64,000 bases of DNA from Branchinecta lynchi. Its lineage: Eukaryota > Arthropoda > Branchiopoda > Anostraca > Branchinectidae. The notes beneath the pieces were generated by a model. That model ran no database searches, was not told where the DNA came from, and was given only the letters and a program-made list of their open reading frames with translations. The stretch spans positions 12,976,030 through 13,040,029 of the forward strand of contig JAKZAP010000016.1 of the NCBI GenBank assembly GCA_023053575.1, in the 5' to 3' direction. The position numbers and the translations under genes were made by a program. Below are positions 38,128 to 58,473 of the stretch, one piece after another (the first letter of the stretch is position 1; every line of letters starts with the position of its first letter).

Positions 38128-38306
38128 TTAACACTCAGACTGATCGGCTGCTGGCAGTGGCGGAAATACATTTTGAAGGAAGTATCCTTTGTAGTTTCCT
38201 GGTGGGTCGTACAAGGCCACGACGAACACCTTTCCTGTCTTTGGGCTTCTTGCTCTTCCCACTCCTAAATGATGACTTTTCTTCCAAACCAATTGGGTGA
38301 AATGGC
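38128..38306 (-). CDS. CAP3 module, terminal exon with stop
   Basis: The acceptor is TTTTGCAG and the length is 179 bp. It reads GHFTQLVWKKSHHLGVGRAR, then VFVVALYDPPGNYKGYFLQN, then VFPPLPAADQSEC and a TAA stop at 38130-38128. This exon has the same phase-1 start as the other third exons but runs to a stop instead of a phase-2 donor. The intron before it is about 7.5 kb and holds a nested SINE/hAT/satellite stack. A possible AATAAA lies about 530 bp downstream at 37604-37599, which is far, so the true polyadenylation site is uncertain. Confidence 0.87.
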
Positions 38307-38408
38307 CTGCAAAATTAGATGTTGGGTTTGCGTCGGCTTCACGGGAGTAACAAACAAAGTATTCAACTGAACTTGCATCCATTGCGGGATACAAGAACAT
38401 TTAATCCG

Positions 38409-38429
38409 TCCTGGCCCAATGGTTAGCAC
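38409..38429 (+). repeat. 5' fragment of a tRNA-derived SINE
   Basis: TCCTGGCCCAATGGTTAGCAC is the tRNA-like head with its A-box region. It is separated from the rest of the SINE (43055 onward) by the hAT insertion, and the last eight bases are the duplicated target. Confidence 0.8.
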
Positions 38430-38535
38430 CAGGGGTGTCACGTATGGAGGGGGAGGGGGGGAGGACACCCCCCCCCCAATGTTGTCGCGCTGTCGGTAAT
38501 TTTTTTTAGTAGAAACCGTTGATTTTTTCATGAAA

Positions 38536-41500
38536 GCGATCGCGATTTCTGTCCGTCCGTCGGTCTGTCTATCGGTCGGTCCGGGTTTTGCTAGTTTGGG
38601 CACTTCCACGTAAGCCAGGGAGATGAAACTTGGCAGGCATATCAAGGACCCCAAATGATTAAGTTGGAAATTGTCACGTTCCCGATCCGAATATCGCGGG
38701 GGGAGTGGAGGGCGGGAGAATCCGGAATTTTGATAAATTTTTTACTTTTAAACGGGTGATCGGATCTTAATGAAACTTGATATTAGGAGAGACCTCGTGC
38801 CCCAGAAGACCCGACCTCGTGCCCCAGATGAACCGACTGAAATCTGGACCAGATCCGATGATTGTGGGGGGAGCTGGAGGAGGGGGGGGGGGTCGGAAAT
38901 CTTGGAAAACGCTTAGGGTGGAGGGATCGGGATGAAACTTGGTGGCAAGAACAAACACAAGTCCTAGATACATCGTTGACATAACCGGACCGGATTCCGG
39001 CACTGCGGGGGAGATGGGGGGCCTCTAGTGATTCAGCGAGTTCAGAACTTCCCGATGTACTTGGATGCTGGAACTCGACAGGAATATTAGGGATTCGAAT
39101 AGACCTACTTGGAAATAGTCGTTCGAACGATCCGAACATCGTGGGGGAAGTGGAAGGATGGGGAATCCGGAATCTGTAGTGGCATTTATAACTTTAGAAC
39201 GGGCGATCGGATTTGAATGAAATTTGGCAAGCGGAAAGAGCTGTTGTCTCAAATGGTCATGCCAAGTCCGGAACAGATCGCTTAATGTCGAGGGATCTGG
39301 ATGTAATTTGGTGGGAAGAATAAGCATAAGCATTAGATACTTTCTTGACAGAACAAGATCATATCGGGTCTCTTTGGGGGGAAGTTTGAGGGTTTTTTCC
39401 CGGGATTCCGGTGATCGCAAGATATACTTCCAAATGGGCTAAGGAGGATAAAACTTGGCAGGCATATTAATGACCCGACCAAATAGACTTAAGGACCTGA
39501 CACAATGCCCTAGGAAGACTTCCGTACCTGGAGCCGACAATTTTTCGGGGAGTTGAGGGAGGGGGAATCCAGAAATTACTGACTTCCGTAGGTTGCGAAA
39601 AAATGGTTCGATTCAAGTGAAACTTTATGGGTGATATGAAGTAACGATCTATATGTACAAAGCATGTGTCCGAACCCACTCGGCCATGGTTGGGGGAGAT
39701 GGGGGGGGGGGTCCTGAAACTTTGTGACATGCTAAAAACCAAACAGATTGGCCTAATGGGATGCAAGGTGGACAGTACCAAATTTATGCGGCCTAGATTT
39801 GTCATTTGGCGTCCAAACCTTGTTCCGACCAAGGTAGAGGATGATGAAGCGGGAACCGAAAATTTGAAGAAATGCTCCGATTCAAGTTAAACGGAAGGGA
39901 AGAGGAGATGTTAGAGATGCGAAGTTTATGTGGCCAAGTCGTTTTCGGATACAGTGGGAGGAAATGGAGGGGGGGGGGGGGTCACGGAAATGTTCTGGCT
40001 CGCATAGGGATTGAACGAGTGGAGTGACTTGAATGAAACTTGGAGAGTAGAGAGATTGTGTGCCTTTGATGACATATTTTAGGGTCCAGATTGAAGTAGA
40101 AGCACGGTGGGGAGGAGGGGGAGGAGTACTGGAATTTCCAGCAAAATGCTAGGATTTACTTTCTCGTTTCTCAACCACCTACTCGTGACAAGGGCCATAT
40201 GAGCTCGTAGCTCTTGTTCTTAAAATTTGTCAATTTTTCGCCAAAAGTGTGTGTTTTTATGGCACTTGAGCTTAATCAAGTGCCATATAGCGATTGTAAT
40301 TTCTGTCCGTCAGTCGGTCTGTCGGTCTGTCGGTCCCGGTTTTGCTAGTTCGGGCACTTCCAGATAAGCTAGGACGATGAAACTTGGCAGGCATATCAAG
40401 AACTGGACCAGATTAAATCAGAAATGGTCGCTTCCCCGATCCGACCATCTGGAGGGGAGTGGAGGGAGGGGGAATCCGAAAAAATAGGAAAAATTAGATA
40501 TTTTTAGCTTACGAACGGGTGATCGGATCTTAATGAAACTTGATATATGGAAGGACTTCGTGTCTCAGACCCTCCATTTTAAATCCAGACCGTATCCGGT
40601 GACATTGGGGGGATTTGGAGGGGGAAACCGGAAATCTTGGAAAACACTTAGAGTGGAGGGATCCGGATGAAACTTGGTGGAAAGTACAAGCAAAAGTCCT
40701 AGATACGTGACTGATATAACCGGAACGGATCCGCTCACTTTGGGGGAGTTAGGGGGGGGGGGGAGAAGTCCGAATTTGTAGTGATCCCGCGAGTTCCGTG
40801 CTTCCTGATGTGCTGGGACGATGGAAATTGACAGGCATGTCTGGGACCCGACCAGATTAAATAGGAAATCGTCAATTCCCCGATTTGACCATCTGGGGGG
40901 GGGGGGGGTGGAGTGGAGGGAGGGTGAAGCCAAAATTTGAGGTATTTTTAGCTTGCGAACGGGTGATCGGATCTTGATGAAAGTTGATACTCGTGTCTCA
41001 GACATCTCACTTTAAATCCGGGCCGGATCCGATGACACTGGGGGGAGTTGCAGGAGGGAACCGGAAAATTTGAGAAACGCTTAGAGTGGAGGGATCGGGA
41101 TGAAACTTGGTGGGAATAACAAGCACAAGTCCTAGACACGTCATTGACATAACCGGACCGGATCAGGGCACTGTGGGGGAGTTGGGGTGGCGGTCCGGAT
41201 TTCTAGCGATCCCGCGAGTTCGGCATACTTCCTGATGTCCTAGGGCGATGAAACTTGGCAGGTATGTCAGGGATCCGAACAGATTGACTTGAGAACAGCC
41301 GTTTTCCCGACCAGACCATCGTGGGGGGAGTGGGTGGATGGGGAGTCCGGAATCTAGTGGCGTGCATAACTTTTGAACGGGTGACCGGATTTGAATGAAA
41401 CTTGTCTGGTGAGCTATCGCCTCGGACGTTCAGTGTCACGTCCAGGTCGGGTCCGATACCTGTGGGGATTGGGGGGGGGGGGGGAACTCAAGAAACTCTA

Positions 41501-42955
41501 AATGCAGAGGGATTGGGACGAAACTTAATGGATGGAACAAGCATTAGGCCTAGATGAAATTGACGGAGCCAGATGGTTTCGGGGCTCTGTGGGGGGAGTT
41601 GGAGGGGGTTTCCTGGAATTCCGGTAGTCGTGAGTTAGAATAGTTCCAGATGTAAAATGACAGCGAAACTTTGCAGGCATAGTAGCGACCCGAATTATCT
41701 TGACTTAAGAACCTGACACAACATACCCCCGGAAACTTCCGTTCCTAGATCCGAGCATTTTTTGGGGAGCAAGAGAAGAGAAATCTGGAAATTGACTTCT
41801 ATAAATTGCAAACGAGTGGTCTGATTCGAGTGAAACCTTATGGGTGATACGAATCGATGGCCTCGACATGTAAAACATGCGTTCGAACCATATGCGACCA
41901 CGATTAGGGGAATTGGGGGTGGGGGGACTTTTGACATGCACAAAAACCAAACGGATGGACCGAATAAGATGCAAATTCGACAGTGCCGAGTTTATGCGGC
42001 CTAGATTTGTTATTTGGCGTCCGGGCCGGATTCGGCCAAGGTAGGGGGGTACTGGAAACTTGCAGATAGGCTATGCTCCAATTTCAGTAAAACTTGATGG
42101 ACAGGAACAGGGAATTAAGATATTGGGCCCGAACCGGCTCCGACAACGTTGGTGGGAGGGGGGGGGGGGGTACCGAAACTTTCCAAAAATGCTCAGATTC
42201 GAGTGAAACTTGATAGATGGTATAAAAGAAGATGCTTTAGGTGGTCGATTTTTTTTTATTCCGAACCGATTCCGAACATGCGTTCAAACCATATGCGACC
42301 ACGATTAGGGGAATTGGGGGTGGGGGGACTTTTGACATGCACAAAAACCAAACGGATGGACCGAATAAGATGCAAATTCGACAGTGCCGAGTTTATGCGG
42401 CCTAGATTTGTTATTTGGCGTCCGGGCCGGATTCGGCCAAGGTAGGGGGGTACTGGAAACTTGCAGATAGGCTATGCTCCAATTTCAGTAAAACTTGATG
42501 GACAGGAACAGGGAATTAAGATATTGGGCCCGAACCGGCTCCGACAACGTTGGTGGGAGGGGGGGGGGGGTACCGAAACTTTCCAAAAATGCTCAGATTC
42601 GAGTGAAACTTGATAGATGGTATAAAAGAAGATGCTTTAGGTGGTCGATTTTTTTTTATTCCGAACCGATTCGGCCACGGTAGGTGGAGATAGAGTGAGT
42701 ACCGGAAATCGTGTAGCACGTCTAGGGATCAAACAAATGGATTTATTGGGATGAAAGTTTGAACAGTCATGTGCATTTGCTACAGACAATCGAGACGATG
42801 CCGGAACTGCTCAGAAATGACTGAAACTAAATATCTTATTTCTATTTCCTAACCGCATTTTCGGATGGCGGGTGTATTTTGTGACGTTCTCATCTACTTT
42901 CTTGTACAGCCTACTCGTACAAGTGCCATATGAGCTCGTAGCTCTTGTTTTTTTA
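38536..42955 (+). repeat. Family 2 satellite-bearing elements, two in tandem
   Basis: The first runs 38536-40220 and ends GGGCCATATGAGCTCGTAGC then TCTTG. The second, 40255-42955, begins with the hairpin ATGGCACTTGAG/CTCAAGTGCCAT-type stem at about 40259-40289 and ends with the same CATATGAGCTCGTAGCTC. The body is a higher-order array: ~145-bp subunits (GATGAAACTTGGCAGGCAT; GATCGGATCTTAATGAAACT; GGGATGAAACTTGGTGGGAA) in sets of three, each followed by a G-run. No genes. Confidence 0.82.
41881..42675 (+). repeat. Recent ~400-bp tandem duplication inside family 2
   Basis: Segment 41881-42275 is repeated at 42282-42675 with almost no differences apart from G-run length and rare single bases. 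That is far closer than other units of the array, so the duplication is young or an assembly effect. Confidence 0.9.
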
Positions 42956-43054
42956 AACAGTCGTTTTCTCTGCAAACACAGTCGGTAAATACCCCCCCCC
43001 CCCAAAAAAAAAAAACAAAACAAAAAAAAAACATTTTGGCTAGTAACGCCTCTG

Positions 43055-43284
43055 GTTAGCACGCTGGACTCCCAAATAAAGGGTCGCTGGTTCGAGTACC
43101 GGTTCTGCCTACAGTTTGGTTTGGGGCGGGAATTAGTGGCGTAATCCTATTAGGCAAGCCAAAGTCCACCCAGCTTCCAAATGGGTACCTGGAGAAATCG
43201 GGAGAAGGTGACACGAAGGATGTGCGAAAGCACCAGGATGGCTGTCCCCCGACCTCCCATTGCGCTTTCTGATCAGCACCGCCA
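43055..43284 (+). repeat. tRNA-derived SINE, main part
   Basis: GTTAGCACGCTGGACTCCC continues the tRNA head. GGTTCGAGTACC at 43089-43100 is a B box. The tRNA-unrelated body has AAATGGGTACCTGGAGAAAT and AAGGATGTGCGAAAGC. It is not a functional tRNA gene: the fold is degenerate and it is embedded in SINE sequence. Confidence 0.82.
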
Positions 43285-43571
43285 GAGCGTGTACCACCCT
43301 TCTACAAATAGTAACTATTAGTTACTATTTCCGTTCCAACCTCACCAAAAGTTACTACGCTGACCGTTCCAACCTTCTCGAAATAGTAACTATTTGCTTA
43401 CCACGCTCGGGAGCGTAGTAACTACGGATCCCCTGTAACGTGATTGGTCGGATTCGCCCGTGGCATGATATTCTGCTGGAAAATCGAAAAATCGTTCCAG
43501 CCTTGATGGCAAAAAGTCAGAATTCGCGACTCCATGCGTAGTAACTACGGTAAGTAGGATGGAACACGCTC
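43285..43571. mobile_element. MITE with GAGCGTGTxCCA ends
   Basis: 287 bp. The ends GAGCGTGTACCACCCTTCT and, inverted, GTAGGATGGAACACGCTC match. The interior has several GTAACTAT/ATAGTTAC self-complementary words. Target duplication not clear. It abuts the SINE. Confidence 0.65.
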
Positions 43572-44177
43572 AAAGTATCTCCAACATGGAGTTCAATTAC
43601 GATATCAAGCTTTCCGTGCAGGTGTGAAAGACTTGCTACGCAACGCAAAAGACACGCAGGTGTCGAAGACGCAACGTATCGCATCGACGCGTCAATGAAT
43701 GAATGAAAAAAACTATCTCCCTTCCAAATGACCTATAGACGGAGTAAACAAAACAGAAAAAAAGAGCAAAAACGCAATACAACATTACAAAATAACAACA
43801 ATGTAAGAGAATACGAACATTAGCTCGTAAATGAGGCGTATAAACCGTGGGATCTGTTTGAAGAGCTGTAAATCTTTTTTCTTCTTGCCTCAATCGCAGT
43901 CACAGGGTCGGCAACACTGTACTTCGTACTGATTTTTGTATTCTTTGCCCACGGGGGGAAACTCAGCAGATACTTGGCGCACCGATAGTAATAAGATATA
44001 AAATCTTGACGTCGGGATTATAGTATTATGTGTCAGAGCGGTGCCAACGCTATAACATTTCGCAGACCACAGCATTGTAGAGACGCGCAAGAATATGTCG
44101 GCTGTACACACACTTACAGGAAACTAGGGTACCGCAACACTTCCGTACCTTTTATGAGAAGTCGGTCACCAGACCAT

Positions 44178-44549
44178 AGGCGTATTCTCGCTGTTCCCCG
44201 AGGACTCCTCGGGGAACCAAGGGGAACAGCGAGAATAGAGGGAGTCACTCCACGCGGACTCCGCGTACGGAAAACAGCGAGAACGCGGGAATGCTTCCAA
44301 CATCGATTTTGTTCGAAAAAACAATATGCAGCTGATGAAACTACTCTGGATCCACTTTATTTTCGGTTTCCTTTATTCTGATTGTTTTTAATTAATTTTA
44401 CTTTGCACAACACAAGCAAAAATATTTGATGATGGTGATGATAATCGTAGCATTCCCCGTCCGTGGGGACTCGCGAGAATACGGGGAGTGAGTCCCTGGG
44501 ACAAACACAAACGCAGGGACTCCCCCCGGGGAACGGCGAGAATACGCCT
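44178..44549. mobile_element. MITE with AGGCGTATTCTCGC ends, CAT flanks
   Basis: 372 bp. AGGCGTATTCTCGCTGTTCC at the left matches the inverted GGAACGGCGAGAATACGCCT with one mismatch. CAT lies on both sides (44175-44177, 44550-44552). Internal hairpins such as CCCCGAGGACTCCTCGGGG are striking. The 3-bp flank would suit PIF/Harbinger, but the class is unproven. Confidence 0.75.
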
Positions 44550-44820
44550 CATGTCTTGTCGATTTTAGGTTTGAGAAGAAAGGCAGACCAAGATATGTGA
44601 GGCATCCTGTAGGGAAAATATAGTGGCTACCAAGCCTAACAGAAATGCTATCAGCTACTTCTTCACCATTAAAAAGAAGCACCTCCCTTTTACTCTCATA
44701 GAAAGTTCGACCTATATTAGAACAGGACTCTGAAAAGGGCGGCAAATTGTCTTCAATAGGCTTAACGTTCCAGCTCAAGTTCAAAATATGATCCGCATAA
44801 TTACTAAAGAAATACACACA
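44550..44820 (-). other. Open frame of unknown nature
   Basis: A minus-strand frame reads SREVLLFNGEE-like sequence (observed SKREVLLFNGEEVADSISV) and CLTYLGLPFFSN. It looks protein-like but fits no family I can name with confidence. It lies in intron 7 of the CAP gene and overlaps the tandem duplication at 44700. It could be an exon relic. Confidence 0.25.
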
Positions 44821-45097
44821 TTAGAACTTCCTTTTTCAAATTTGGCAAGTGGCTGTGCAAGCATAACCGGTATTATTTAAATCGGTCGATGATACATTAG
44901 AAAGTTCGACCTATATTAGAACAGGACTCTGAAAAGGGCGGCAAATTGTCTTCAATAGGCTTAACGTTCCAGCTCAAGTTCAAAATATGATCCGCATAAT
45001 TACTAAAGAAATACACACATTAGAACTTCCTTTTTCAAATTTGGCAAGTGGCTGTGCAAGCATAACCGGTATTATTCAAATCGGTCGATGATACATT
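44700..45097. repeat. 199-bp tandem duplication, nearly identical
   Basis: The unit starting AGAAAGTTCGACCTATATT at 44700 recurs at 44899. By eye the copies differ by one base (ATTTAAAT versus ATTCAAAT). A very recent duplication. Confidence 0.92.
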
Positions 45098-45500
45098 ATC
45101 TACGTTTGAAGGATCCGATCCAGGTGAGCTCTAAAAAGCAAGACAAAATAAATGCTAGTTACAGTCATCTTCGCCACCATTTGAGCCGGGCCTAAAACTT
45201 TGTAAGCTGTTGCCCTGTTTGATACAAAACAAAATAATAAAAAAGTACTTCTTTGGTATTTCGTACTTATTAATGTTTATTTGTAAATTTGTAAATCTGT
45301 TGTTTTAGTTTGAGTGTTACGATGATGTGCACTAGGATTAGAAAGCTTAAATGTACGTATTGTAAGAGCTTTAACTATTAACCTTTTTCTTGTCTCGTCA
45401 TTTTGGCGGAATAAAAGCATTTCCTTAATTTCATTCATATCTAAACCACGAAAAATACAACAAATACGTACACTTCTTGCGTCTCAATAATACTGTTATT

Positions 45501-45701
45501 TTAGACTTGCAGAGAAGTGATCACCCCTTGACGGATTCCCTTACGGACTGGCACAAAAGTATTAAAAACAACAGGACCAAGTGCTGACGGGACTTTATCT
45601 TTAAATTTGAGCTTACTTTTCTGAAGCCCCCGCTTGAAAACACACAGCAGCAAATGGGCGTGGTTAAACAATCGGTGAAAAGAATATTGCGTTTTCCTCA
45701 T
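45501..45701 (-). pseudogene. Possible RT fragment
   Basis: The frame includes FVPVRKGIRQGVITS, reminiscent of the GVRQGxxLSP motif of LINE reverse transcriptases. It is isolated and lacks neighbouring RT motifs. Low confidence. Confidence 0.3.
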
Positions 45702-45814
45702 AAGGTCACATAAGGTTGCTTTACTATGTGCGAGCAGCTAGCCAAGTAGTAGGGATCCAAAAAGCACAAACTTATGGACGCGAATAGTGCACAAGTCTCT
45801 CGACACAAACTTAC

Positions 45815-46022
45815 CACATTTCGAAGCTTTCGGCTCAAAGTCAAATCTGTATTTCTTGCTTTCATTGTACCATGTTGTAACGACATCTTGCGCCGAAAGT
45901 TCGGGTTTTCCTTTGGATGACCATCTGCTGAAAAAGTTATCTCCATAATCGTCGCCGCCGTATGGTTTAAAGTAGTCCAAGGCTGCCAGTTGCTGAGCAT
46001 GTTGTGTAGCCTTCTTGCAGAG
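45815..46022 (-). CDS. CAP3 module, second exon
   Basis: The acceptor is TATTCTAG, the phase is 0 and the length is 208 bp. It reads LCKKATQHAQQLAALDYF, then DDYGDNFFSRW, then VVTTWYNESKKYRFDF and ends SKCG at codon position 1 with donor GTAAGT. The GEN motif is GDN here (Glu to Asp), and no His is evident in the preceding loop. The alignment with CAP1 and CAP2 second exons is clear from WYNES and from the identical phases. Confidence 0.85.
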
Positions 46023-46351
46023 CTAGAATACGCAAATTTTGACGTTCAAACCGGCATCATCGAGATAGGTTATTTCTCGTCGCAGTGCAACAAAGAACAG
46101 AAGTGAGACTTCGGTTTCTGGTGTTTGAGCAGAAGTCTACTACGTTTCTCGTTAACCAGCGTTAGTGACCCAAACGACACGGTAGGAATAACTTCCAGAC
46201 CATAGTGAAACAAGATTTACATTGGCTCGGCAACGTCTACTTCTTCTGTTTGTCTCGAATAATATTTCGGCCGCAACTTCACCAAGTCTCGTTTGAATGC
46301 CACCGAATCCTTTAGTCGTGTCCGTTGTTATTTCATGGAAAACGGTCTTAC

Positions 46352-46619
46352 CTCTTCGTCCAGTTCTAGTGGCTCCACCTGGTGGACCATCCTATATTCG
46401 TTGTGTACCTTTAGACATGCCTTTGCAAAACCTTCCGCGTTCTCTTCGGACTTAGTTTGGTTGACTTCCTTCAGTTTCACTGTTTCTTGTAAGGCTGGGG
46501 GAAGAGGTAGTTCCGGTTCGTAGAGGTTGGAATTGGATAGGAAGTGGGAGAGGGGCACTTGGCGCTGATGTTCGTCGTCAGTTGAGGAGTCCTCGCTTGT
46601 GGTATCTGGTTCCGTCCAC
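46352..46619 (-). CDS. Acidic linker plus CAP3 module, first exon
   Basis: The exon is 268 bp. The donor is GTAAGA after LELDEE. The chosen acceptor, ATTCAAG just above 46619, has a poor pyrimidine tract but is the only nearby AG that keeps the phase-2 junction. The first two thirds encode a Ser/Asp/Glu-rich linker (TEPDTTSEDSSTDDEHQRQ, then a Leu/Pro-rich stretch). The end encodes ACLKVHNEYRMVHQVEPLEL, the CAP helix with HNEYR. The linker is more than twice as long as the one between CAP1 and CAP2, and I recognise no domain in it. Confidence 0.78.
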
Positions 46620-46714
46620 CTTGAATAATGAACTGTTTATGTTTTGGTTGTCACCAAAATATGTACGTCTTTTAGTAGTTGTTATATCGAACTGGTATCG
46701 TATCTAACTCTTAC

Positions 46715-47190
46715 TAGAAATGATCTTTTCACGGTTAAACTGCTCAGAAATATCGATTTTCGAAAATACCATTACTTTGACGTGATATTAGCGATATTCT
46801 TGTTAGCGTGTGTCGAATCTATCCGGTTTTCCCTCTCTCTGACTCGGCGGCTGCACGCAAAATATTTGAAAACTGACGGCACCGTGGTTGAAAACTGGGA
46901 AAGAACAAGGAAAACAAAATAAGTCTAAAACAGAAGATGGTCCTGATGATCTACCATGTCTTCCAAAATGAAAAACAACAATTTGAAGCTCCTCACGTCC
47001 TTAGCTTATGTGTGAAAGAATATCGGCGATGTTTGGATTCGCAAAACTAGGTACGGTCGAGAAAGCACTAAACAGTCGTGGGAACAAAAAGAATCAATAG
47101 CGAAAGGCGGGGATTTCAGCAGTTTATAATTCCATAAGGGAGCTAGTTATAATATAAAAAGCAGAATAAAGTAAGAGTAAGCGTTCACAA
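46715..47190. repeat. Intronic repeat, partner of 50.93-51.43 kb
   Basis: ACTAGAAATGATCTTTTCA, TTTTCTTGTTAGCG-type words and TAAGGGAGCTAG followed by AAGCAGAATAA occur in the same order and orientation at 50930-51430. The two lie in different introns of the CAP gene. Confidence 0.7.
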
Positions 47191-47482
47191 AAAGCCCATG
47201 AACCGAGGCGGGAAAAATAACAGTAGAATATAGAACACTAGTAAAACATCATCTACAGAAATAACTCTCGGTGAAAACCTTAAGCCGTTGGTTTCTGTTT
47301 CTGATCCATTTCTTACTATCCCCACCATTCACCTTTGATCCCCACTGTTTCGGCCTAATGTCGTTTTTTCACTGCTGTATGAGTCGTGACAAGAAAACTT
47401 GGAAAGAAACAAGACTGACAACTTGCTCTCCGATTGGTACTCTGGTTTTTCCAGCTATGCCCAAGCGGAATCCATTCCTTAA

Positions 47483-48439: not shown

Positions 48440-48587
48440 CCTAATGATCGAACGTTTTCGTTGAAGCTTCCGATCGAATTTCCTGGAGGACTGTAGTTGC
48501 ACACTACATATAAGCGGCCTGACTCAGACCAGGCGACGCCAACGCCAATCTTTTTGCTTGAACGCCACACTACTTGAGTGAAGTGGC
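48440..48587 (-). CDS. CAP2 module, third exon
   Basis: The acceptor is TTTTACAG, the donor GTGAGT and the length 148 bp, identical to the matching CAP1 exon. It reads GHFTQVVWRSSKKIGVGVAW, then SGRLYVVCNYSPPGNSIGSF and ends NENVRSL. This is the classic GAPR-1 core strand and C-terminal strand. It ends at codon position 2, as does the CAP1 counterpart, and joins 46619 in frame. Confidence 0.87.
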
Positions 48588-48796
48588 CTGTAAAACAAGT
48601 ATTCCTGTGAACATCTTCACCATCTTCACAGTGACTGGGGATGCGGCGAAATACCGAACTGTCCATATTCTGCATCCCCGCAACCCTTCTCTCTCAGAGG
48701 TGGCGCGCAACTTCATCACGTTTGGACTTTCGCCAAACTGATGAGTCAGCATAAATTTTAATATACCAGTCACGAAGGTTACGAGACCTCAGTATA

Positions 48797-49212
48797 TTAT
48801 ATTTGACGGTGCAAAACGGATAAGTCAGCTACATTTTAGTAGAGCTATATTTTGGCCCTTCTTGGCAAGGGTCCTCTTCAGACTTAGCCGCTCAAACTAG
48901 AAAATGAACTTGTGGAAAAACAATCAAAGATTCTTCCTTAAATATTTAATTTTGTGGACTTCTTTTGTGAAAATTGGTTGAAGTTAAAGTCGGTGCTGTG
49001 ATTTCATTCTCGACATGGCTGCTGTTTTTGCAGTTCGATTGGGTTGTCGAAAGGGTAGACATTCTTCTGCATTTTTGTTTTGGAGTCGTCTTCTTCTTCT
49101 TTCCAGCTAAGATGGATACTTGTCGGCGGCATGTGTTAGCGATTTGACCAACCAATTTTGCACCGTCAAATATGATTCGCAGTCAGCTTGGGCGGAAGGA
49201 ATATTTACCTCA
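48797..49212 (-). mobile_element. Penelope-like fragment with inverted ends
   Basis: The left ATATTTGACGGTGCAAAA mirrors the right TTTTGCACCGTCAAATAT, and the right side continues into AGTCAGCTTGGGC as in the 32.5 kb copy. A hammerhead-like core on the minus strand (48881-48846) has AAAA in place of GAAA, so it should be inactive. The interior resembles 54260-54450. Confidence 0.6.
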
Positions 49213-49217
49213 ATACT

Positions 49218-49512
49218 CGATGAAAAATTTATCTGAAAATAGTACCATAAAGTAGTACGAAAAAGTTGCATGCCTGACGATGCTACTACATGCTTCTACT
49301 TCAAGGCTACCGTGTTACTGCATACTACTATATGCTACTATTGCAAGACTGGATGCTACTATGGCAGGACAGGATGCTACTGGATACTACTACATAAGAC
49401 TGGACCAGTCTGAGGCACATTAAATTATAGTATTCTTTGCTATTAGATACTACTACATGCAAAGTTTTCGTACTACTACCATACTACTACGCAGGCTACA
49501 AATTTTTCATCG
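49218..49512. mobile_element. MITE with GATGAAAAA ends (copy B)
   Basis: 295 bp. CGATGAAAAATTTATC and the inverted AAATTTTTCATCG bound a GTAGTAGTA-rich interior. It matches 12908-13381 in reverse without the nested hAT, which confirms the boundaries of both. Confidence 0.8.
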
Positions 49513-50583
49513 GGTAGGCTATAAGTAATAAAAATGGTAAATATTAATATATTCGAAACATTATGTTAATACATAGTTTCCAAATTTCATATTAATTCCC
49601 TACTCTAGCCCTTTGAAATAATCTATGCTGGAATCCTTTTTAAGTCGCTATGAGGCCGCCCAGCACTGTGCACTTCATGGATAAATTTGTTGGTGGTTGT
49701 TTGGCTTTACGTCCCGGTATCGTGAAATCTAAACTTTACCGAGAAAGGTTGGAAATATATACAGAAAACGCTTAAATTTCTTATCGATGGATTAGTTTTT
49801 GATTGGTGAAGGTATGACCATTTGTCTTGCTTTGATCTCTCTTTCCTTTTTTTGTATGGCCTTTTTTTCCGTTTCAGATGCCACCAGTAAAGAAATACCG
49901 GTTCGGACGGCTGCTCTAGCCTCTAGAAACTTTTCCAATAGCCGAGAAAACTCAGTTCAACTTGACCAAAAGCTACTGAGACTTCCCCTCTAGAACCACC
50001 CCTGTCAGAAAGACTAGTAGGATTGCGGCTCCACTACTACACATTACAGAAACTCCAACGGTCCGAATCTTTCAACAACAGGATTGCCACATGTCGCAGG
50101 TGTGAATTGTCACTCTATTTTGTTTGAAAAAATCACTCCATTTCAGAAAATGACCAAATGTGTCATTTTTGCAGCAGGGATTCCGACCAGAAGTGACTAT
50201 TTCTTTGTTCATGAAAGTAAAATTAACGTGTGTCATTTTTAAAGAGGTGATTACGACCAAAAGTGAACATTTCACGAAAAGAAATTTCACTCCCAATTCA
50301 CTCTCTGTTTTGGGCCAAAAGTCACTCTCTAAATATTTTTAATCTGGCAACCCTGTTCAGGAACGGTAAGAAAAGTTAGCTTCGTTCCCTCTAGGTGAGA
50401 TGTTATAACACTGGTAGTACCGAATTATACTTGAAGAAGCACTTTGAGCGTGACTTTTGTAATTAGTTGGTCTTAAATAAAGTTATTGCCCAACCATGCA
50501 TCAATCATGGACTGTGATCGGCTTTAGTTTTAGGATAAATTATCAATTGGTTGAACCAGATCTAAAAAAAAGACTGACGTTAC

Positions 50584-50797
50584 CTGCTTTAAGATTTGTT
50601 GGCTCCTTTCCAAATGTGAAATCTTTCATCTCATTGTACCAGAAGACAACAGGAGAAGCACCAGAGACCTCAGATGTCACTCCAGTTGAACTTTGAAGGC
50701 TGTAGATGTTTTCTCCATATTTTCTTTCTCTTCGATGACTGATAGTAGTGTCGGATTTGGCGAGGGTGTTTGCCCATGCCTGTGCGTACTTTGAAAC
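50584..50797 (-). CDS. CAP2 module, second exon
   Basis: The acceptor is TTCCCAG, the phase is 0 and the length is 214 bp. It reads VSKYAQAWANTLAKSDTTIS, then HRRERKYGENIYSL with the GEN motif and a preceding His, then VVFWYNEMKDFTFG with the Glu of WYNEM. It ends at codon position 1 with donor GTAACG, slightly off consensus. With the next exon it restores GHFT, so CAP2 is the only one of the three domains in which all four positions of the His/Glu/Glu/His site can be seen. Confidence 0.85.
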
Positions 50798-50929
50798 CTG
50801 GGAAGTGAAGTTCCCTTTCATTACACGAAACTGAACTGCTATTCCTTTTTTTTCTACATTAGACTTTCTTAGCTCTCTACTTTCGATAGAGGACCACCGC
50901 CTTTTCTCGAATCTATCGTTAAAGCTCAA

Positions 50930-51430
50930 CTGTTACTAGAAATGATCTTTTCATTATGAAATCTCTAAAAAAAAATATTTTTCGAAAATATCATTACTCT
51001 CCGCCTGAGCTTAGCAATTTTCTTGTTAGCGCTTTTTGATTCTGTGTAGCCTTCCTGCTCTTCGGCGCGGTGGCTGGGCGCAATAAATTTGAAAACTGAA
51101 CGCTCCGTGGTAGGCCGAAAGGGTTCCGAAGGGTTGGAGCCTAAGAGCCAGAAGTTTTTTGGATTGGATTGAAAAGTGGGAAAACTAAGCAAATAAAAGA
51201 AGTCAAAAACAGAAGATTGTCATATCCTTGTGTTTGAAAGAGTTGTCAGCTTGTTAATTGTCATACTCTGCGTTGTGTAACAGCCAAAACTCGGCATGGC
51301 CGAAAAATCGCAACAAAAATTCGTAGGAACAAAAAGAAACAGTGGAGAAAGGTGGGGACTTGGGGACTTTAGAAGCTTATAATTCTGTAAGGGAGCTAGG
51401 TACATTATAAAAGGCAGAATAAGCAAGAAG
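50930..51430. repeat. Intronic repeat, partner of 46.7-47.2 kb
   Basis: Same word order as 46715-47190 with more divergence. It lies just upstream of CAP2 exon 2. Confidence 0.7.
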
Positions 51431-51565
51431 GGTCCTTCAAGTGAATATCTCTTTGAGTCTCACCATTAACTGAATAGTATGAATACTCCGTCAGTTCAAG
51501 CTGACTGGGATCATGTATCAAAAATTTCTCAACGCCGAAAAAATCAGCTACGATGTTTTTCAGAT

Positions 51566-51601
51566 ATATTTCGGCCCTCCTTGACAAGGGTCCTCTTTAG
51601 G
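51566..51601 (-). ncRNA. Degenerate hammerhead-like core
   Basis: Reads CTAAAGA, stem, GAAATAT. The G of CUGA is A here, which should abolish activity. Part of another Penelope-like fragment (about 51530-51610). Confidence 0.4.
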
Positions 51602-52336
51602 TGTTTGCTCGCCAGTTACTGAATAACCTTGGATCTGAGATACATAGATAAGTGCTGTTCCTAAAACCAAAACATGGACTGTAAGAAAAGGATGAAATTA
51701 AGGAAGGACGGGGTTCAAAAGGTTCGTAAAGATTTTCGCAAACTGTTCCGTTTTTTGTTCGCTGCTCACATTATTCAACTTCACCATCATATACTCTAGA
51801 CTATTTAACATTTATTTCCTGATTCAGATTTTTTTTTTTCATTCTGCTTTGATCTATTCTACTTTTATTGGTCAGCTTTGAGCCTTCAAAAAAATTAATG
51901 AAAGTTGAACTTCTCGTCTACTACTATAAAGGACTTTATGGAGAATTCAAGGGGCTGTAGTGTATAAAGATTACCCGCTGCGGTGTTCGGTGCCGGCACC
52001 GGTTGCCACGTGTTAGAACATAAGAATCAGCATGTTTGGACGCGGTAACCACCGTATCTAGGGCTGGCACCAGTGGCGGCACCGCTGGTTTTGGTTGGTG
52101 CTGGGAAAGAGTGTAGAGCAGGTACAGGGGAGTGGGTAACCCCTCTGCAAGGTTACGGAACAACCTTATGAACTTTGCTAACGATTTAACCGACTTTGCG
52201 TTTTTTCCCAACGCCTCCTTTAAACTGCATTACCTAGGCAAGTGAATCTTGTCGGACCCTGAACTTGGAGCAACGGTACTGTTTCGCGAAGTGAGGTCGG
52301 GTGTAAATATTAAAGGCAAGGGTCGGACGCACTCAC

Positions 52337-52481
52337 CTTTTTGCTGAGTTTTAAAGGCTCCGCTCCATGGTTTGCCCTAAAAGCGTTGTGTTTTGCTAGG
52401 CATTCGTTAACAAACATTTCCGGATCGAAAACGAACTTCTCGACTCTATTTTGGTGTTGGACTGCGTTACTCTCACGTTTG
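52337..52481 (-). CDS. Linker plus CAP2 module, first exon
   Basis: The acceptor is TTATTTCAG with a good pyrimidine tract, the donor is GTGAGT and the length is 145 bp. One leading base completes the split codon from the CAP1 module. About 25 linker residues (KRESNAVQHQNRVEKF and following) lead into FVNECLAKHNAFRANHGAEP then LKLSKK. This is the first helix of a CAP domain with its HNxxR and HGAxPL signature. The exon ends in phase 0. The correct frame has no ATG-initiated long open frame, so simple ORF calling misses it; I found it by reading the splice-bounded frame. Confidence 0.85.
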
Positions 52482-52959
52482 CTGAAATAAGAAAGGGTGA
52501 TTCAGTGAGCTTGTATGACACTTTATCATTTATTTCCTCTTTGACAAATAGTTTTTTTTTTTTTTGTATTGTGTTTGGTTTCAGTGGATCTTTAGTGTAT
52601 TCTGCCAAGTTGTGTTTTGGCGATCCGTTTTAAGCTACCATAGTAGCTTATCTTAAAATACAACTTTAAAGAAGAATTGAAACCTGGTTGGTACTATTCC
52701 ATGTTTTTCTTCTCAATAAGCCTATTTTCAAATTTCCTTCCACATATGCTTTATGCTTTTGCTCTCAGCCAAATATGATCTTCCAATAGTCTTGTCACAA
52801 TTAAGCCCCGCCCTTCGCGTCCTTTCTGATTTGTTCAGTCGGTAGTACGGACTGTACAATTGAATCAATGACGACGTAATGTTAATCAAGGTTGCCCGTA
52901 ACAGACAGAGCTAAATAACACTAGAGAGTAGCGCCAACACGCTTCATATTCTGAACATA

Positions 52960-53495
52960 GCAAAAAAATGATTCAGCCTCCATTGTTTCCTTTGTGTGTG
53001 CAGGCCGCACCTTTGCTTTACTTTAAATTTGTAAACCCGCAAGTTTATCTCGCTTGAAATGCCGCAAGCATACTGGGCGGCCCAACGAATGGACTTTGGC
53101 AAGAAATGTCTTGCTTCCCCGTTACACCGAAACATTCTGCCAGACTTCACGGACAAAATAGTTACAAAAAGTCGCCCAAATACAAGACTCAAATCAAAGC
53201 TGAGTGAAGTGGAGCAGCTACAAACGCCTCCTTGCAGGACAAGCCGCTATGAGAAGTCGTTTGTGCCTTATTTCGTTCAGAATTTTAATGAAAACAAGCT
53301 CAGAGAAATTGACTGCTGACTGAATTAAATTGTAAATATAAAATCTGAGTAATTGTAAATATATTTTTGATTTAGTTTATTTATTTATAACTGTCAATAT
53401 TTCTGCTTAATCTCAATTGTGCATGTTGTGTGTTTTGTATCATTGTCTTCTTTGTGACGCGTCCAAACTATCTTATAATGATATTGGCAAAATAA

Positions 53496-53527
<32 letters not shown>
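52960..53527 (+). pseudogene. LINE 3' end with (TTGA)n tail
   Basis: The frame 53059-53319 ends PCRTSRYEKSFVPYFVQNFN, the C-terminal pattern of non-LTR polymerases (CRTxRYxxSFxP). It is followed by AATAAATTGATTGATTGATT at about 53490-53527, a microsatellite tail typical of CR1/L2-like LINEs. 5'-truncated. It lies in the intron between CAP1 exon 3 and the linker exon. Confidence 0.65.
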
Positions 53528-53529
<2 letters not shown>

Positions 53530-53974
53530 CGAATATGCCGTTTGCAAAGCATGGAAAGCATAGGTCTTAGCACTATTCGTTAGTGTTATTTTGCTCTGGT
53601 AACAGGCAGGATGCTTTCACAGTGGATAGGTATTGCGAGAGTACAAAGAAGTTTTGTTTTTCAAATGGAGCAAATTTATACCCTTGACCGGAAAATGGAA
53701 CGATAAGCTGTTCAGTGAGCATGTATCTTCATCGAAGTAGCACTACTACATATGCGAAATATAGCAGTGTCACAAAAGAAGGATAGCTTTCTATCTAATA
53801 CCTTTTTTTCAGGTTCGCGCTCGGATGTGGCCTAGCGCTAGTAGGAGCCTATGTGCAGTGGAGACGTGATTGGGTTCTGAAGATGAAGTTAGGAGCCAAG
53901 GTGAACACCACAAGCACAGGTATAACTTTTTTGTTTTAATCACATGCCTCTTCTTCTGTTAAGAGCTAGTTTAA

Positions 53975-54150
53975 AGGACCAGTCTAGCCATAATTCCATA
54001 ATCCCAATGGAACCTACTTCCGTAATCACTCCGTCGATCTAAGAACCTGGAGACCCGAATTTCATACGGAGCTTCCTATCCCCCTCTAAATACACTCCAC
54101 TGCTTTTCACACCCCTTGCTTTGCTATTTTCAATGCGTATCCTGCCCCCC
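53975..54150 (+). mobile_element. Truncated TTAA-type MITE
   Basis: TTAA then AGGACCAGTCTAGCCATAA. It matches the AGGACCTGTCTTACC end of the 56.5 kb copy and stops after about 175 bp. Confidence 0.6.
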
Positions 54151-54165
54151 TTAGGATCAACATTC

Positions 54166-54480
54166 CTTTGCGAATCATATTTGACACTGCAATGCGAATA
54201 CGTCAGCTACATTTTATTAGAACTATATTTCGGCCCCTCTTGGCAAGGGTCCTCTTCAGGCTCTAGCTGTAAAATGAACATGTGGTAAAATAACTGACAA
54301 TTCTGGCTTAAGTATCTAATTTTGTGAATTTCTTCGTGAAAATTGCTAGGAGTTATAGCTGGTGCTGCGATTTCATTTTGGACATGGCTGCTTTTTTACT
54401 TCTCGATATGTTGGTTGAGAGAGTAAATAGAGGTAAAAGTTATACTAGTTAGCATACCTCCATCTCTGATGATATCGGCA
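54166..54480 (-). mobile_element. Penelope-like fragment with hammerhead-like core
   Basis: Minus-strand core 54259-54221: CTGAAGA, stem, GAAATAT, then GTATT. The residues expected for a hammerhead core are all present. The flank CGAATCATATTTGAC mirrors the end of the 48.8 kb copy. Confidence 0.55.
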
Positions 54481-54636
54481 CGACGATCGAGCTCGACAGC
54501 CATTTAAGAATATTTAAAAACCAAAATGCTGAAAAATCTCTACCCTCTCAGCAACCCAATCGACCCAGTACAAGCTTTAACTCAAAGCCACTGTGACGAA
54601 GAGATTCACAAAATCAGAAGCAAGACTTTAGGTGCG

Positions 54637-55370
54637 TTGTGGGATCCCAAAATGCAAGTGGAGGGATAACCTACCTCTGACTTCGTAAAATTTGTCCGTA
54701 TATCCGTCCGTGTGTCGGCGCGATAACTCTCGAAGGGAATGAGATCTTTTGATGAAACTTGGTGTGACGATTTTTGGGTAAAGGGACAGGTCGAGTTCGT
54801 AGATTCTGTAGCCATGCATTTCGGGGTGGGGGTCCAAATTAACGGCGAACAACAAATTTTTGAACGGTTAATGATATAGCTGATTTAAGGTAAGAAGACA
54901 TACTGAATACTTTTATGAAAGTAATTTTCTCGCCGGACAAGTAGTTCGCCCGGAATCCGGCTGTACCGGGAAATTTGTTAAAAGTAAATGTTTTATCTGA
55001 AGCTGATTAGAGGTTCGATGTAGTGATAAATAGGCGTTCTGAATCCGTATATGAAAAAAAATTTCTCGGTGGACAAATAGTTCGCCCGGAATCCGGCCAG
55101 AACCTGGAAATTTTTTGAAAAAGTGAGGTTATATCTGAAGTTGATCGGAGGTTCGATAAGGGATAAGGAGACGTGCTGAATTATTTGCTTAGCTTTATTT
55201 TTTTGCCAGACAATTAGTTCACCCGGAATCCGGCCGAACCCGGAGTTTTGGCAGAAGTAAGTCACGAAGTGTTGGTGAATTTCGTCAAATTAGATTAGTA
55301 TAGGGGCAAATCCCAGTTGGCCGGATCAAATATTAAATTTGTGGGATCCCATCTAACCTTCGGCCTTGTT
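54637..55370 (+). repeat. Family 1 interspersed repeat
   Basis: GGGATCCCAAAATGCAAGTG start, short GTCCG run, ~130-bp units, and a diverged CCTTCGGCCTTGTT end. Confidence 0.8.
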
Positions 55371-55382
55371 CTCCAAGTTCTT

Positions 55383-55490
55383 TTTCCAGCTTGAATCTGA
55401 AGAGGACCCTTGCCAGAAGAGTCGAAATATAGGTCTAATACGGATATGTCAGCTATAGCTGACGTATCCGTTTTGCCGTGTCAAATACAC
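55383..55490 (+). mobile_element. Penelope-like fragment with hammerhead-like core
   Basis: Core at 55397-55433: CTGAAGA, stem (GGACCCTTGCCAGAAGAGTC), GAAATAT, then GTATC at about 55464-55468. A small TCAGCTATAGCTGA palindrome lies in the stem III loop. Confidence 0.5.
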
Positions 55491-55499
55491 TCCGAGGAT

Positions 55500-56505
55500 T
55501 GTTTGCGAGAAGTTCTCTCGTCAGGCAAACCAGATCTGTATTTTTCCGTCTTTAGCTAGAAGTCAACCGACCTGTAAAAAGGCTTAAAACAGCCCGTGCG
55601 TAATTTTTAAAAGCAGAGCCTCGATTTAAATACTCAACGATTGTATTAAATTGGAGCATAAATAATAAATTGGACTAGGCTTATTGCTTGTGCTGAAAAA
55701 CGTAGTAGACTTATATAACGTCTAAAACTCCTGCATAAAAGCTACGTATGATTTACTTGAAGTATGCGAAGTATTTGCTTGGGCTACTACCGTGGTCCAG
55801 TAACCAGTATGTGATTAAGAGATTTGGTCGGATAGACCCGGCTGTTGCTGTTCCTATGAGAGTTGCTAATTTTCAAAATAAGTTCCGGTCACCCCTGGGT
55901 GACTCTTCAGAGATCGTCTTAAATTGGAAATTGTATATAATAGTTGAATGTTGAGTGTATTGAACCCGTTGTATATATTCGTGGTAAACTGCATTTTGTT
56001 GCTTTTTTTTTTCGTACTCTTCCCCCTATTGTACTTGATACAGTTTTGGCAGGTAATCCGTTCCTTCGATTTCTCCGTTCCTTCGATTTCTTTCGCATTG
56101 GTTAATTGGTTAATACCAGTGGTTAATACAAATTAAGCCGTTTCTGCATTCTGTGATCGTGGCAACGGGGTCTTCTGGTTGGCTCGCGTATTGGTGGTTA
56201 AGAAGGTCCCACAACAATTTAAGCAGATTGAGGGGGGCCAGTGGAGAAGTGAAATGACGAAAGAATCTAGGTGTACCAGGCTTCTGAGGCGCGATGTATG
56301 ATGTGTCTGATGGAGAACGGGTATGCTGGCTGTTCTTAAAGTTGGCGATACGTCATACACTTAGCTTCTTAAAGCGGGTTCTCTTCAGGCTCTGGCCTGG
56401 GGGTATGGGTATGTTCAGTCCGCCCCCGCATGAGTTTATTTTTAGGCTATGAATATCATTTTAGTGTTTATTGACTAAAGGCCATCTTCTGCCACTCATA
56501 CAAAC
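55500..56505. other. Unassigned intronic region
   Basis: A partial relic of the TTAA MITE body lies at about 55560-55650 (AAAAGGCTTAAAACAGC). The remaining sequence shows no recognisable feature. Confidence 0.4.
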
Positions 56506-56509
56506 TTAA

Positions 56510-56880
56510 AGGACCTGTCTTACCTATTATACTAACGCAACCAACTTTCATAATCATTCCATATATTTCTAAACCCGGAGACCCCAATTTCGTCTGGTAC
56601 ATTCTAACTCTCTAACAAAACCACGCGAATTTTCTCACTTGCCGTGTTTTGCTACCTTTGATGTGTATCACGCTGTAGACGGATGTCTGCAAGAAGTTTT
56701 TCCATCAGAAAAACTGGTTATGTAAATTGTTTCTCGGTTTTCGCTATAAGTCAACGGGTCTCGGAAAAGGCTTAAAACAGCAAAAACCGTAGGTTATTCG
56801 TTGAAAGCACAGCCCAGTTTTAAAGTATTCAAATTTTTTAAAATACTACAAGTTGAGGAGTAAATAGTGCGAGGGGTCTT
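56510..56880 (-). mobile_element. TTAA-flanked MITE, copy 3 (inverted)
   Basis: AGGACCTGTCTTACC start, GAGGGGTCTT end, TTAA at 56506-56509 and 56881-56884. The body matches copies 1 and 2 in reverse. Confidence 0.78.
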
Positions 56881-57114
56881 TTAAAGTAAACAAACAAACG
56901 AAACGAAATCATCAAACAGTAGCCTAGCACAAACGGTGCTGAACTTTGGACCGTTTGAGCATTGATCAAGCCATTCAAAGTCCGCCGGCGGGGAGGAGAC
57001 AGGCCAACGAAAAACGCGGCCTATTAAAATTGCGAAAGACGTGACGATCATGTTGTTTCCCACTGTTCAGTGCCAAGGTTGCTTTAGTGTGGCATAAAGC
57101 GATTGTGGTTAAGC

Positions 57115-57350
57115 ACTCTAGTTTTTATGGCACTCGTAGATGAATTTCTTGCGCCCTTGAAGTGGGCATTATTACAGCCAAGTACAAAAATAAAATACCT
57201 TTTACCAAACGAGACAGTCTCGTGAATTCCAAGGGCCCGTGATCATTCTTATCACAAGGGTTTTTCTTGCAAATGATCAGAACAAACTCACGAATTCGCA
57301 AATTCCTACTTTCATCCTCGAAGAGCTTCTAGCTCTTGTACGTGAACGCG
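57115..57350 (+). repeat. Short family 2-type element
   Basis: TTTTTATGGCACTCGTAG head, two ~130-bp-type words (AAGGGCCCGTGATCATTC), and AGAGCTTCTAGCTCTTG end. It ends about 90 bp from CAP1 exon 3. Confidence 0.65.
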
Positions 57351-57438
57351 GTGCATTTACTGCCCGGCCGATTTTTTTTATAGATGCAATGCTCAGAGTG
57401 CAGGATTTGGAAAACTTCTGGTCTAAGTGTAAACTTAC

Positions 57439-57586
57439 TGTTTTGGAAAAACGTTGTCGTGGTACTTTCCCAGCTCATTTCCGTATGGATCGTAGTTGCC
57501 CACAACATAGAATCTTCCTGAAGTCGAACGGGCAACTGCTACTCCCATTCGTATTGAGCTCTTCCAAACCAACTGAGTGAAGTTAC
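57439..57586 (-). CDS. CAP1 module, third exon
   Basis: The acceptor is CTTTCAG, the donor GTAAGT and the length 148 bp. The exon begins in phase 1 and gives GNFTQLVWKSS, the strand equivalent to GHFTxxVW, then VVGNYDPYGNELGKYHDNVF, the C-terminal CAP strand and NVFP end. The His normally found in GHFT is Asn here, which removes one residue of the His/Glu/Glu/His site of the family. It ends at codon position 2 after FPK and splices to 52481 with a completed His codon. Confidence 0.87.
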
Positions 57587-58199
57587 CTGAAAGTTTTGGT
57601 TTCAATTTTTCATTTGTATTATTCACTGAAGGAGTTTCTAATTGACAAATTGTAGGCAGGTCACATAGAGCCAGGATTGGTTGATTACTGTGAAAAAATA
57701 ATAACGTCTTGGGGCGCGAGGAACATCTTCGCTTGTTTCAAGGCCCGGGTAGCATATTTTCTTTACTTAATTTTCTTAATTTTGTTTGGCGTCTTATCCT
57801 CTCGGTGAAGTTAATGTTTTTTGTTCGTCACCTTCTCTTTCTAACCACATTCAAATTTTTCTTTTTCACCTGGATCTTTTAAGCCTTTATAATTAAAGAT
57901 TCAGAATCATTCTTTCTGTTTTAAAATAATGTTATACCCAAGCCCTTCAGATTAAAAAAAAAAATCAACACTTTATGGGCTTTTATTTTTGTCTATGTTT
58001 AGTAAATGTTATTTCAATTTCACTATTTAACATACAATTTTGAACAGTTCATTATACTTGACTTAATTGTGTCTTTTGTCTGCTCTGGGTGTAGACGTTA
58101 AACTACAGGACCATGATCGACCTAGTTCAGCTAATATACAGGTATAACTTTACAAAACACTGCACTATTTTGAGTCAATAAGCATATGTAAGCACTTAC

Positions 58200-58410
58200 C
58201 AGCTCTCGTCATTGCGTCATCTGGAGCCGAAAAATTGTATTGGTCGATCTCGCTATACCAAGAGTCGACTGGTTCGTGCCCTTCGAGTTTTCTTGTGGCT
58301 TTGGATGACCGGTAGCTGTAAAGGTTTTCTCCGTGCTGTACGTCATTCCGACTTTCGATTTCGTCTTGCGAAGCGAGGTGCTCGGCCCAGTCAGCTGCTC
58401 GGCTGCATAA
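58200..58410 (-). CDS. CAP1 module, second exon (first recognised exon)
   Basis: The acceptor ends in TTGCAG just above 58410. The exon is read in phase 0 and begins LCSRAADWAEHLASQ. It contains HGENLYSY (the GEN motif of GAPR-1-type CAP domains) and DSWYSEIDQYNF, where the Glu of WYSEI matches the second active-site-like acidic residue of GAPR-1. It ends at codon position 1 with donor GTAAGT, so the next exon completes a Gly codon. The exon is 211 bp. The upstream exon that should carry the HNxxR helix was not found between here and 64 kb, where repeats dominate. The first conserved His of the CAP tetrad is not apparent in the loop before HGEN. Confidence 0.85.
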
Positions 58411-58473
58411 CTGCAACGAGCTAATGAATTTAAACTTGCTAAGTAAGTAATTTATTTGTAGCCCGCCATTTAG

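Follow-up and report, generated by a model that had tools for sequence, protein, structure and literature searches.

A Branchinecta lynchi locus that probably encodes a GAPR-1/GLIPR2-type protein built of three or more tandem CAP modules

A 64,000-nucleotide stretch of the Branchinecta lynchi genome (the window) carries on its minus strand eight exons that encode consecutive CAP modules. We interpret these exons as probably the 3′ part of one arthropod gene for an intracellular GAPR-1/GLIPR2-type protein, in which at least three tandem CAP modules would be strung like beads on linkers and would have diverged in role. The exons run from 58410 to 38128 and join into 1521 nt, or 506 codons plus TAA, in one open frame, and the splice-site join thus bears out the exon number, the end points and the single 506-residue frame given in a preliminary description of this DNA. 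Splice sites are canonical: an AG acceptor precedes each of the eight exons and a GT donor follows each of the seven internal ends. The sole N-gap of the window (20904–21003) lies outside the gene. The parts of the locus are as follows.

58411–64000, minus strand: upstream stretch; no CAP exon or insect-type N-terminal motif detected; tandem repeats present
58200–58410, minus strand: module 1 exon b; entry phase 0, exit phase 1; profile match E 2e-19; most upstream CAP exon detected within the window
57439–57586, minus strand: module 1 exon c; entry phase 1, exit phase 2; Asn in place of H103 (GNFTQLVW)
52337–52481, minus strand: module 2 exon a and short linker; entry phase 2, exit phase 0; H17 equivalent (KHNAFR)
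50584–50797, minus strand: module 2 exon b; entry phase 0, exit phase 1; H54, E65 and E86 retained
48440–48587, minus strand: module 2 exon c; entry phase 1, exit phase 2; H103 retained
46352–46619, minus strand: module 3 exon a; entry phase 2, exit phase 0; ahead of it an acidic/proline-rich linker, about 60 residues long
45815–46022, minus strand: module 3 exon b; entry phase 0, exit phase 1; Pro in place of H54, Asp in place of E65; acceptor TTCTAG/CTC picked so that this exon starts at the point where exon b starts in modules 1 and 2
38307–45814, minus strand: last intron, 7508 bp; contains 401-bp and 199-bp near-perfect tandem duplications
38128–38306, minus strand: module 3 exon c; ends in TAA; H103 retained

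All three modules are interrupted at the same places, giving exons a, b and c (exon a is unseen in module 1), and the exon phases read 0-1-2 for the visible part of module 1, 2-0-1-2 for module 2 and 2-0-1-stop for module 3. Growth of the array would have proceeded by duplication of the whole three-exon module; because module ends share one intron phase (2), every duplicated copy stays in frame. From the exon structure we infer a single transcript spanning all three modules. It is quite unlikely that the exons instead represent three adjacent genes with one CAP each, or a locus whose products include shorter forms made by intron read-through after exons 1c and 2c. Left unspliced, the donors after 1c and 2c lead to immediate in-frame stops (FPKQ-stop and RSLG-stop), an outcome common to every phase 2 donor of the GTAAGT/GTGAGT type, and AATAAA/ATTAAA hexamers are present in the introns, although with 28 hexamers across the 21.9-kb span they say little for separate genes. 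Exon 2a holds one in-frame ATG just ahead of the module 2 domain, which leaves a separate start there possible and counts against our main reading. Exons 2a and 3a, however, both begin in phase 2 behind good acceptors, the first in-frame ATG of exon 3a lies inside the domain with none before it, and the related proteins are predicted as single chains. Some relatives lie on contigs of transcript length (2.4–3.3 kb; for example P0012, 646 aa on 2657 bases, and P0016, 580 aa on 2369 bases), which makes it likely that in relatives a single transcript carries three CAPs. Elsewhere in the window, ten other open frames gave no match above the Pfam cut-off (one sub-threshold match, E 0.12), ARAGORN detected no tRNA and Rfam returned no match at the gathering threshold.

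A profile search of the joined protein with Pfam CAP (PF00188) matched three stretches, confirming three consecutive CAP modules. The whole chain scored E 4e-54 (182.9 bits; cut-off 21.1) and modules 1, 2 and 3 scored E 5e-12, 5e-23 and 2e-18 (47.1, 82.7 and 68.1 bits), all computed on a 502-aa join that is four residues shorter at one acceptor than the 506-residue model. The parts encoded by exons b and c share 41–49% identity between modules over local alignments of 90–117 residues, with scores of 206–240 versus at most 44 in 200 shuffles each, and the motifs GEN/GDN, WY.E, FTQ.VW and VV..Y.P.GN are conserved in the modules. The proposed likeness to GAPR-1 was also borne out: in a sequence comparison with proteins of solved structure, human GAPR-1 (1smb, E 9.3e-22) ranked first of 20, and several fish relatives carry the name GLI pathogenesis-related 2. 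PMC2270263 defines group 2 CAP proteins by the absence of the disulphide cysteines that are conserved in group 1. Module 1 (partial) contains one cysteine, module 2 two and module 3 four, each fewer than six, a comparison by number and not by position. Closeness to GAPR-1 and the few cysteines both fit membership of the predicted protein in the GAPR-1/GLIPR2-type group 2. It resembles human GAPR-1/GLIPR2 (1smb, 4aiw) in CAP fold, low cysteine content, a full tetrad in module 2 and E86 throughout. By contrast, human GAPR-1 is a one-domain protein that forms a homodimer, whereas the Branchinecta chain has at least three domains, and in two of these the zinc pair is incomplete.

The 5′ end of the gene lies outside the window or is missing, and the window would hold the 3′ part of the gene. 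Module 1 lacks a start, profile searches of 58410–64000 found no exon a for it, and the insect-type N-terminal motif (MVRKTDQRTFAS type) is absent from the window. An exon-a profile recovered the two known a-exons in the window at 8e-13 and 2e-11 with the next candidate at E 2.1, a whole-domain profile recovered the eight exons at 1e-4 or better with the next candidate at 1.1, and tblastn of six insect N-terminal regions gave a best match in the window of E 0.12. Two modules (2 and 3) are therefore complete and one (1) is partial, and with no further CAP exon up to 64000, three modules is a minimum; the earlier count of three stands as at least three in frame, not as an exact number. A gene of four or five CAP modules of which the window shows the last ones is possible, if on balance doubtful. 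Such a gene would fit the failure to find, up to the window edge, an exon a for module 1, the exon phases permit any module number, and among the relatives listed 15 of 167 have four complete modules and 6 of 167 have five. Against it, the named arthropod relatives in the first 120 mostly have two or three modules, P0002, P0042 and P0045 being exceptions with four.

The preliminary description treated the array as surprising on the ground that GAPR-1/GLIPR2-type proteins are normally single-domain, which proved too narrow a view: two or more complete CAP domains occur in 164 of the 167 relatives listed and three to five in 88, in a search that admitted proteins of 0.55–1.75 times the query length and in which single-domain members are thus not countable. 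These figures rest on 446 domain matches, after exclusion of 26 partial ones (below about 120 profile positions) from 472 in the 167 proteins. A partial further match is also present in 14 of 76 proteins scored as two-domain, so several of these are cut-off three-domain chains. Module 3 alone as query gave 7 matches. Multi-CAP GLIPR2-like proteins with 2–5 tandem CAPs per chain (P0007, P0010, P0003, P0072 and P0006 among them) occur in beetles, lacewings, fish, amphibians, echinoderms and the placozoan Trichoplax. By sequence, the tandem-CAP layout is already widespread in animals, and the Branchinecta gene adds a member to a little-studied set. Among the literature matches listed, all open-licence papers available in part, we found no description of three-CAP GAPR-1-like animal chains; one of these papers suggests, on the basis of gel mass and shared peptides, that lionfish spine extract may contain a GAPR1-like protein with two CAPs (PMC11773604).

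Phylogenetic analysis groups the window modules with arthropod modules, with support of 99/94 in a 71-row tree and 95/96 in a 41-row tree, and in neither tree do they take a resolved position within the arthropods. Module 3 forms a long branch of unsure position, the longest end branch of the window modules. The hypothesis that the last modules of different phyla share one origin was rejected (p-AU 1.4e-5, a value weakened by the naming of the last-module group after inspection of the first tree, and one that concerns the last position alone). From this rejection, chains originated more than once or were repeatedly homogenised. A single triplication within the lineage of the window is not rejected at the 0.05 level (p-AU 0.086). 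The long-branched module 4 of 4 from the fly Lucilia falls outside the arthropod set and adjoins human GAPR-1.

In GAPR-1, H54 and H103 are the proposed zinc site, and their mutation reduces zinc-driven aggregation (PMC6900432); E86A and H17A proteins are mainly monomeric (PMC6803662). At the tetrad H54/E65/E86/H103, module 1 reads S-E-E-N, module 2 H-E-E-H and module 3 P-D-E-H. The full tetrad is thus found in module 2 only. The dimer-interface residue E86 is Glu in all three modules, and H17 is present in both modules with a visible exon a (2 and 3). We infer that module 2, with both zinc histidines and both glutamates, is one zinc-competent unit of the string and would be its zinc-responsive part. 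One or both histidines are gone from modules 1 and 3, which keep the dimer-interface glutamate and are most likely structural or partner-binding units.

Histidine loss could also be plain decay in redundant modules, and it is rather unlikely that modules 1 and 3 are decaying leftovers with function resting on module 2 alone. Beyond the lost zinc histidines, decay would fit the long end branches, longest in module 3, and the presence of at least one intact tetrad in 163 of the 164 listed relatives with two or more complete modules. Yet frames and splice sites are all intact, E86 is present in every module and the conserved CAP motifs are retained. Among the 88 chains that have at least three complete modules, 34 (31 of them named, all vertebrate) show Asn at position 103 of the last module, so loss of this histidine need not mean decay. 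Vertebrate chains often lose the tetrad in the last module, but not always (P0032 and P0037 retain it). Most beetle chains have every tetrad intact, many of them in all three modules, whereas the outer two of the three visible Branchinecta modules are altered; the division of labour that we propose among modules would therefore not be general.

The preliminary description further held that a covalent chain builds in a defined oligomer, a claim that finds no support in the predicted structure of a three-CAP beetle relative (P0015). The domains of this model are well predicted (mean pLDDT 84.9), but pTM is 0.41 and the linkers have pLDDT below 50, so there is no predicted fixed domain arrangement. 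A covalent CAP trimer in a fixed, pseudo-symmetric arrangement like the GAPR-1 dimer is accordingly very unlikely, even though GAPR-1 dimerises on Golgi membranes (PMC6803662) and a solved structure exists for a single chain with two CAP domains, hookworm Na-ASP-1 (3nt8). Na-ASP-1 shares only 16–18% identity with the beetle model over its length and does not superpose as a whole (TMq 0.26–0.27, rmsd 15–16 Å). It belongs to the secreted, disulphide-bonded type of CAP protein. For the Branchinecta protein, independently folded CAP domains joined by flexible linkers remain our preferred reading, tempered by the origin of the model in beetle P0015, and inter-domain contacts on a membrane may still occur. 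The chain would be cytosolic and held at the membrane by its unseen N-terminus or by contacts between its modules and lipids, raising local CAP concentration independently of free dimerisation. Six of the 167 relatives start with MG, as MGKCCSKP in three (two Penaeus among them) and MGGCVSRR in one frog, N-termini that we take to resemble acylation sites; the other 161, some of them fragments, do not, which counts against membrane anchoring of this kind.

Within a widespread set of tandem-CAP proteins the gene is otherwise unremarkable. Tentatively, and with more doubt than confidence, such chains may be a recurrent, independent animal solution, a covalent GAPR-1 string in which a zinc sensor is flanked by silent structural modules that have lost zinc histidines but keep the dimer glutamate. 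If so, the Branchinecta gene, whose middle visible module alone has the complete tetrad, would be among the more extreme cases. Natural chains with modules lacking defined residues are ready-made tests of residue roles. Should the pattern prove real, a comparison of intact with altered modules within a single chain would tell zinc binding apart from dimerisation.

Eight minus-strand exons (58410-38128) join into 1521 nucleotides, or 506 codons followed by the stop codon TAA; the acceptors are AG at 8 of 8 exons and the donors GT at 7 of 7 internal ends. The sole assembly gap of the window (20904-21003) lies outside the CAP gene. The Pfam CAP profile (PF00188) matches three stretches of the joined protein (182.9 bits in total), and the b and c exon parts of modules 1-3 share 41-49% pairwise identity in local alignments, scoring 206-240 compared with at most 44 in 200 shuffles per pair. 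The gene model and splice sites thus bear out the preliminary description of three consecutive CAP modules in one open frame over eight exons, and its length of 506 residues holds because alignment of the three exon b starts fixes the acceptor. In the joined model introns split all modules at two shared positions, with exons a, b and c ending in phases 0, 1 and 2, each following exon a starting in phase 2, and the final exon c ending in the stop. Whole three-exon units could therefore be duplicated with the frame preserved, which would account for the expansion of a CAP array. In schistosomes, group 2 CAP genes likewise keep two in-domain intron positions, but with phases given as 1/1 (PMC2270263), as opposed to 0 and 1 here, so that the structures differ in part.

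Module 1 consists of exons b and c only. A CAP profile search of all six frames of the window recovered the eight known exons at E 1e-4 or better (next best E 1.1), an exon-a profile recovered the two known a exons (8e-13 and 2e-11; next best E 2.1), and N-terminal regions of six insect relatives gave no credible insect-type N-terminus in the window (best E 0.12). The start of the gene is therefore beyond the window or lost, and the count is at least three modules. As the longest intron observed in the gene is 7508 bp and only 5590 bp separate 58410 from the window edge, an additional upstream exon past 64000 is plausible. On sequence alone, a separate start at module 2 is conceivable, since one in-frame ATG stands in exon 2a immediately ahead of this domain; exon 3a has no in-frame ATG ahead of module 3. 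For the joined chain, the unspliced donors after modules 1 and 2 (57438 and 48439, minus strand) lead to in-frame stops, as phase 2 donors generally do, so intron retention would give one- or two-module forms.

Other features of the window are as follows.
28171-28734, minus strand: open frame with a signal-peptide-like start, by eye
9669-10043, minus strand: open frame with a signal-peptide-like start, by eye
41874-42672 and 44699-45098, last intron of the CAP gene: two tandem-duplicated units of 401 bp and 199 bp, each present twice, 99% match
10.8, 24.4, 58.8 and 59.7 kb: scattered tandem arrays whose ~129-138-bp units look related by eye, with CCGGACAA and CCGG-rich stretches
23274-23831, minus strand: 186-residue open frame resembling, by eye, a reverse transcriptase piece
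The first two frames, downstream of the CAP gene, share 27% identity over 108 residues (E 3e-10) and probably encode related secreted proteins; neither has a Pfam match above a cut-off. The intron duplications are either recent or products of assembly, and the 23274-23831 frame has no Pfam match at E 0.5.

Protein searches with the joined protein (693 proteins at E ≤1e-3, best 120 used), residues 1-290 (328 proteins, best 120 used) and module 3 (7 proteins) gave 167 different relatives among the matches listed. These include beetles, a lacewing, locust, shrimp, crayfish and a spider, as well as fish, amphibians, hagfish, starfish, crinoids and Trichoplax; many are gene predictions, several on transcript-length contigs. 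With 26 partial hits set aside, there are two complete CAP domains in 76 relatives, three in 67, four in 15, five in 6 and one in 3; an extra partial hit occurs in 14 of the two-domain proteins. The window protein is indeed multi-CAP, but the surprise attached to it, on the ground that such proteins are normally single-domain, is reduced by the 164 of 167 listed relatives with at least two CAP domains, a count restricted to proteins 0.55-1.75 times the query length and therefore excluding single-domain proteins. Tandem-CAP architecture is already widespread in animals.

A 71-row module tree places all three window modules within an arthropod set (99/94, 45 rows), with echinoderms (99/92), vertebrates (98/89) and placozoans plus cnidarians (97/96) each in a separate set; the exception is a long-branched fly module outside the arthropod set, adjoining human GAPR-1. 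A 41-row tree gives the same pattern (arthropod side 95/96); detail in the trees is restricted by the small number of columns (138). In the 41-row tree a cross-phylum clade of last modules, a group picked after the first tree, was rejected (p-AU 1.4e-5), and a single clade of the three window modules was not (p-AU 0.086). The lineage-specific sets and the rejected clade indicate that arrays arose separately in the arthropod, echinoderm, vertebrate and placozoan-cnidarian lineages, or were homogenised within each.

The proposal that a covalent chain builds in oligomerisation is unsupported by structure prediction. An AlphaFold2 model of the beetle three-CAP relative P0015, from an alignment with 39 others, has mean pLDDT 84.9 but pTM 0.41, with linkers 150-180 and 337-356 at pLDDT <50. 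Its top Foldseek matches are to GAPR-1, covering one domain of the model (TM by target 0.88-0.89, 1.3 Å); for Na-ASP-1, alignment over the full length reaches only 15-16 Å rmsd. Separate CAP beads would fit this model better than a set trimer. Four multi-CAP relatives (P0142, P0147, P0152 and P0044) start with MGKCCSKP or MGGCVSRR, which resemble N-myristoylation plus palmitoylation sites, and these starts suggest that the chain may be anchored at a membrane.

At the GAPR-1 tetrad (H54, E65, E86, H103), the window modules read S-E-E-N, H-E-E-H and P-D-E-H. Across 446 complete modules of the listed relatives, in raw counts that, like those further below, ignore shared descent, His is kept at H54 in 346, Glu at E65 in 426, Glu at E86 in 423 and His at H103 in 391. 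Both histidines are kept in 344 and lost in 53, H54 alone is lost in 47 and H103 alone in 2, so loss of H103 is almost confined to modules also without H54. Among 88 relatives with at least three complete modules, the full tetrad occurs in all modules of 32, is missing from at least one in 56 and is present in exactly one in 8; none of the 88 lacks it throughout, and 1 of 76 two-module relatives lacks it in both. The last complete module has Asn at 103 in 34 of these 88 chains, and the 31 that are named are all vertebrate. For GAPR-1, H54 and H103 form the proposed zinc site (PMC6900432), and the E86A and H17A mutants shift to monomers (PMC6803662). Read against these, a single putative zinc-competent module of the window chain would lie between modules retaining the dimer glutamate E86. 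Many beetle chains, by contrast, have the tetrad intact in all modules, which counts against the single-zinc-module reading. The points still of interest are the repeated origin of multi-CAP chains and their uneven loss of zinc histidines.
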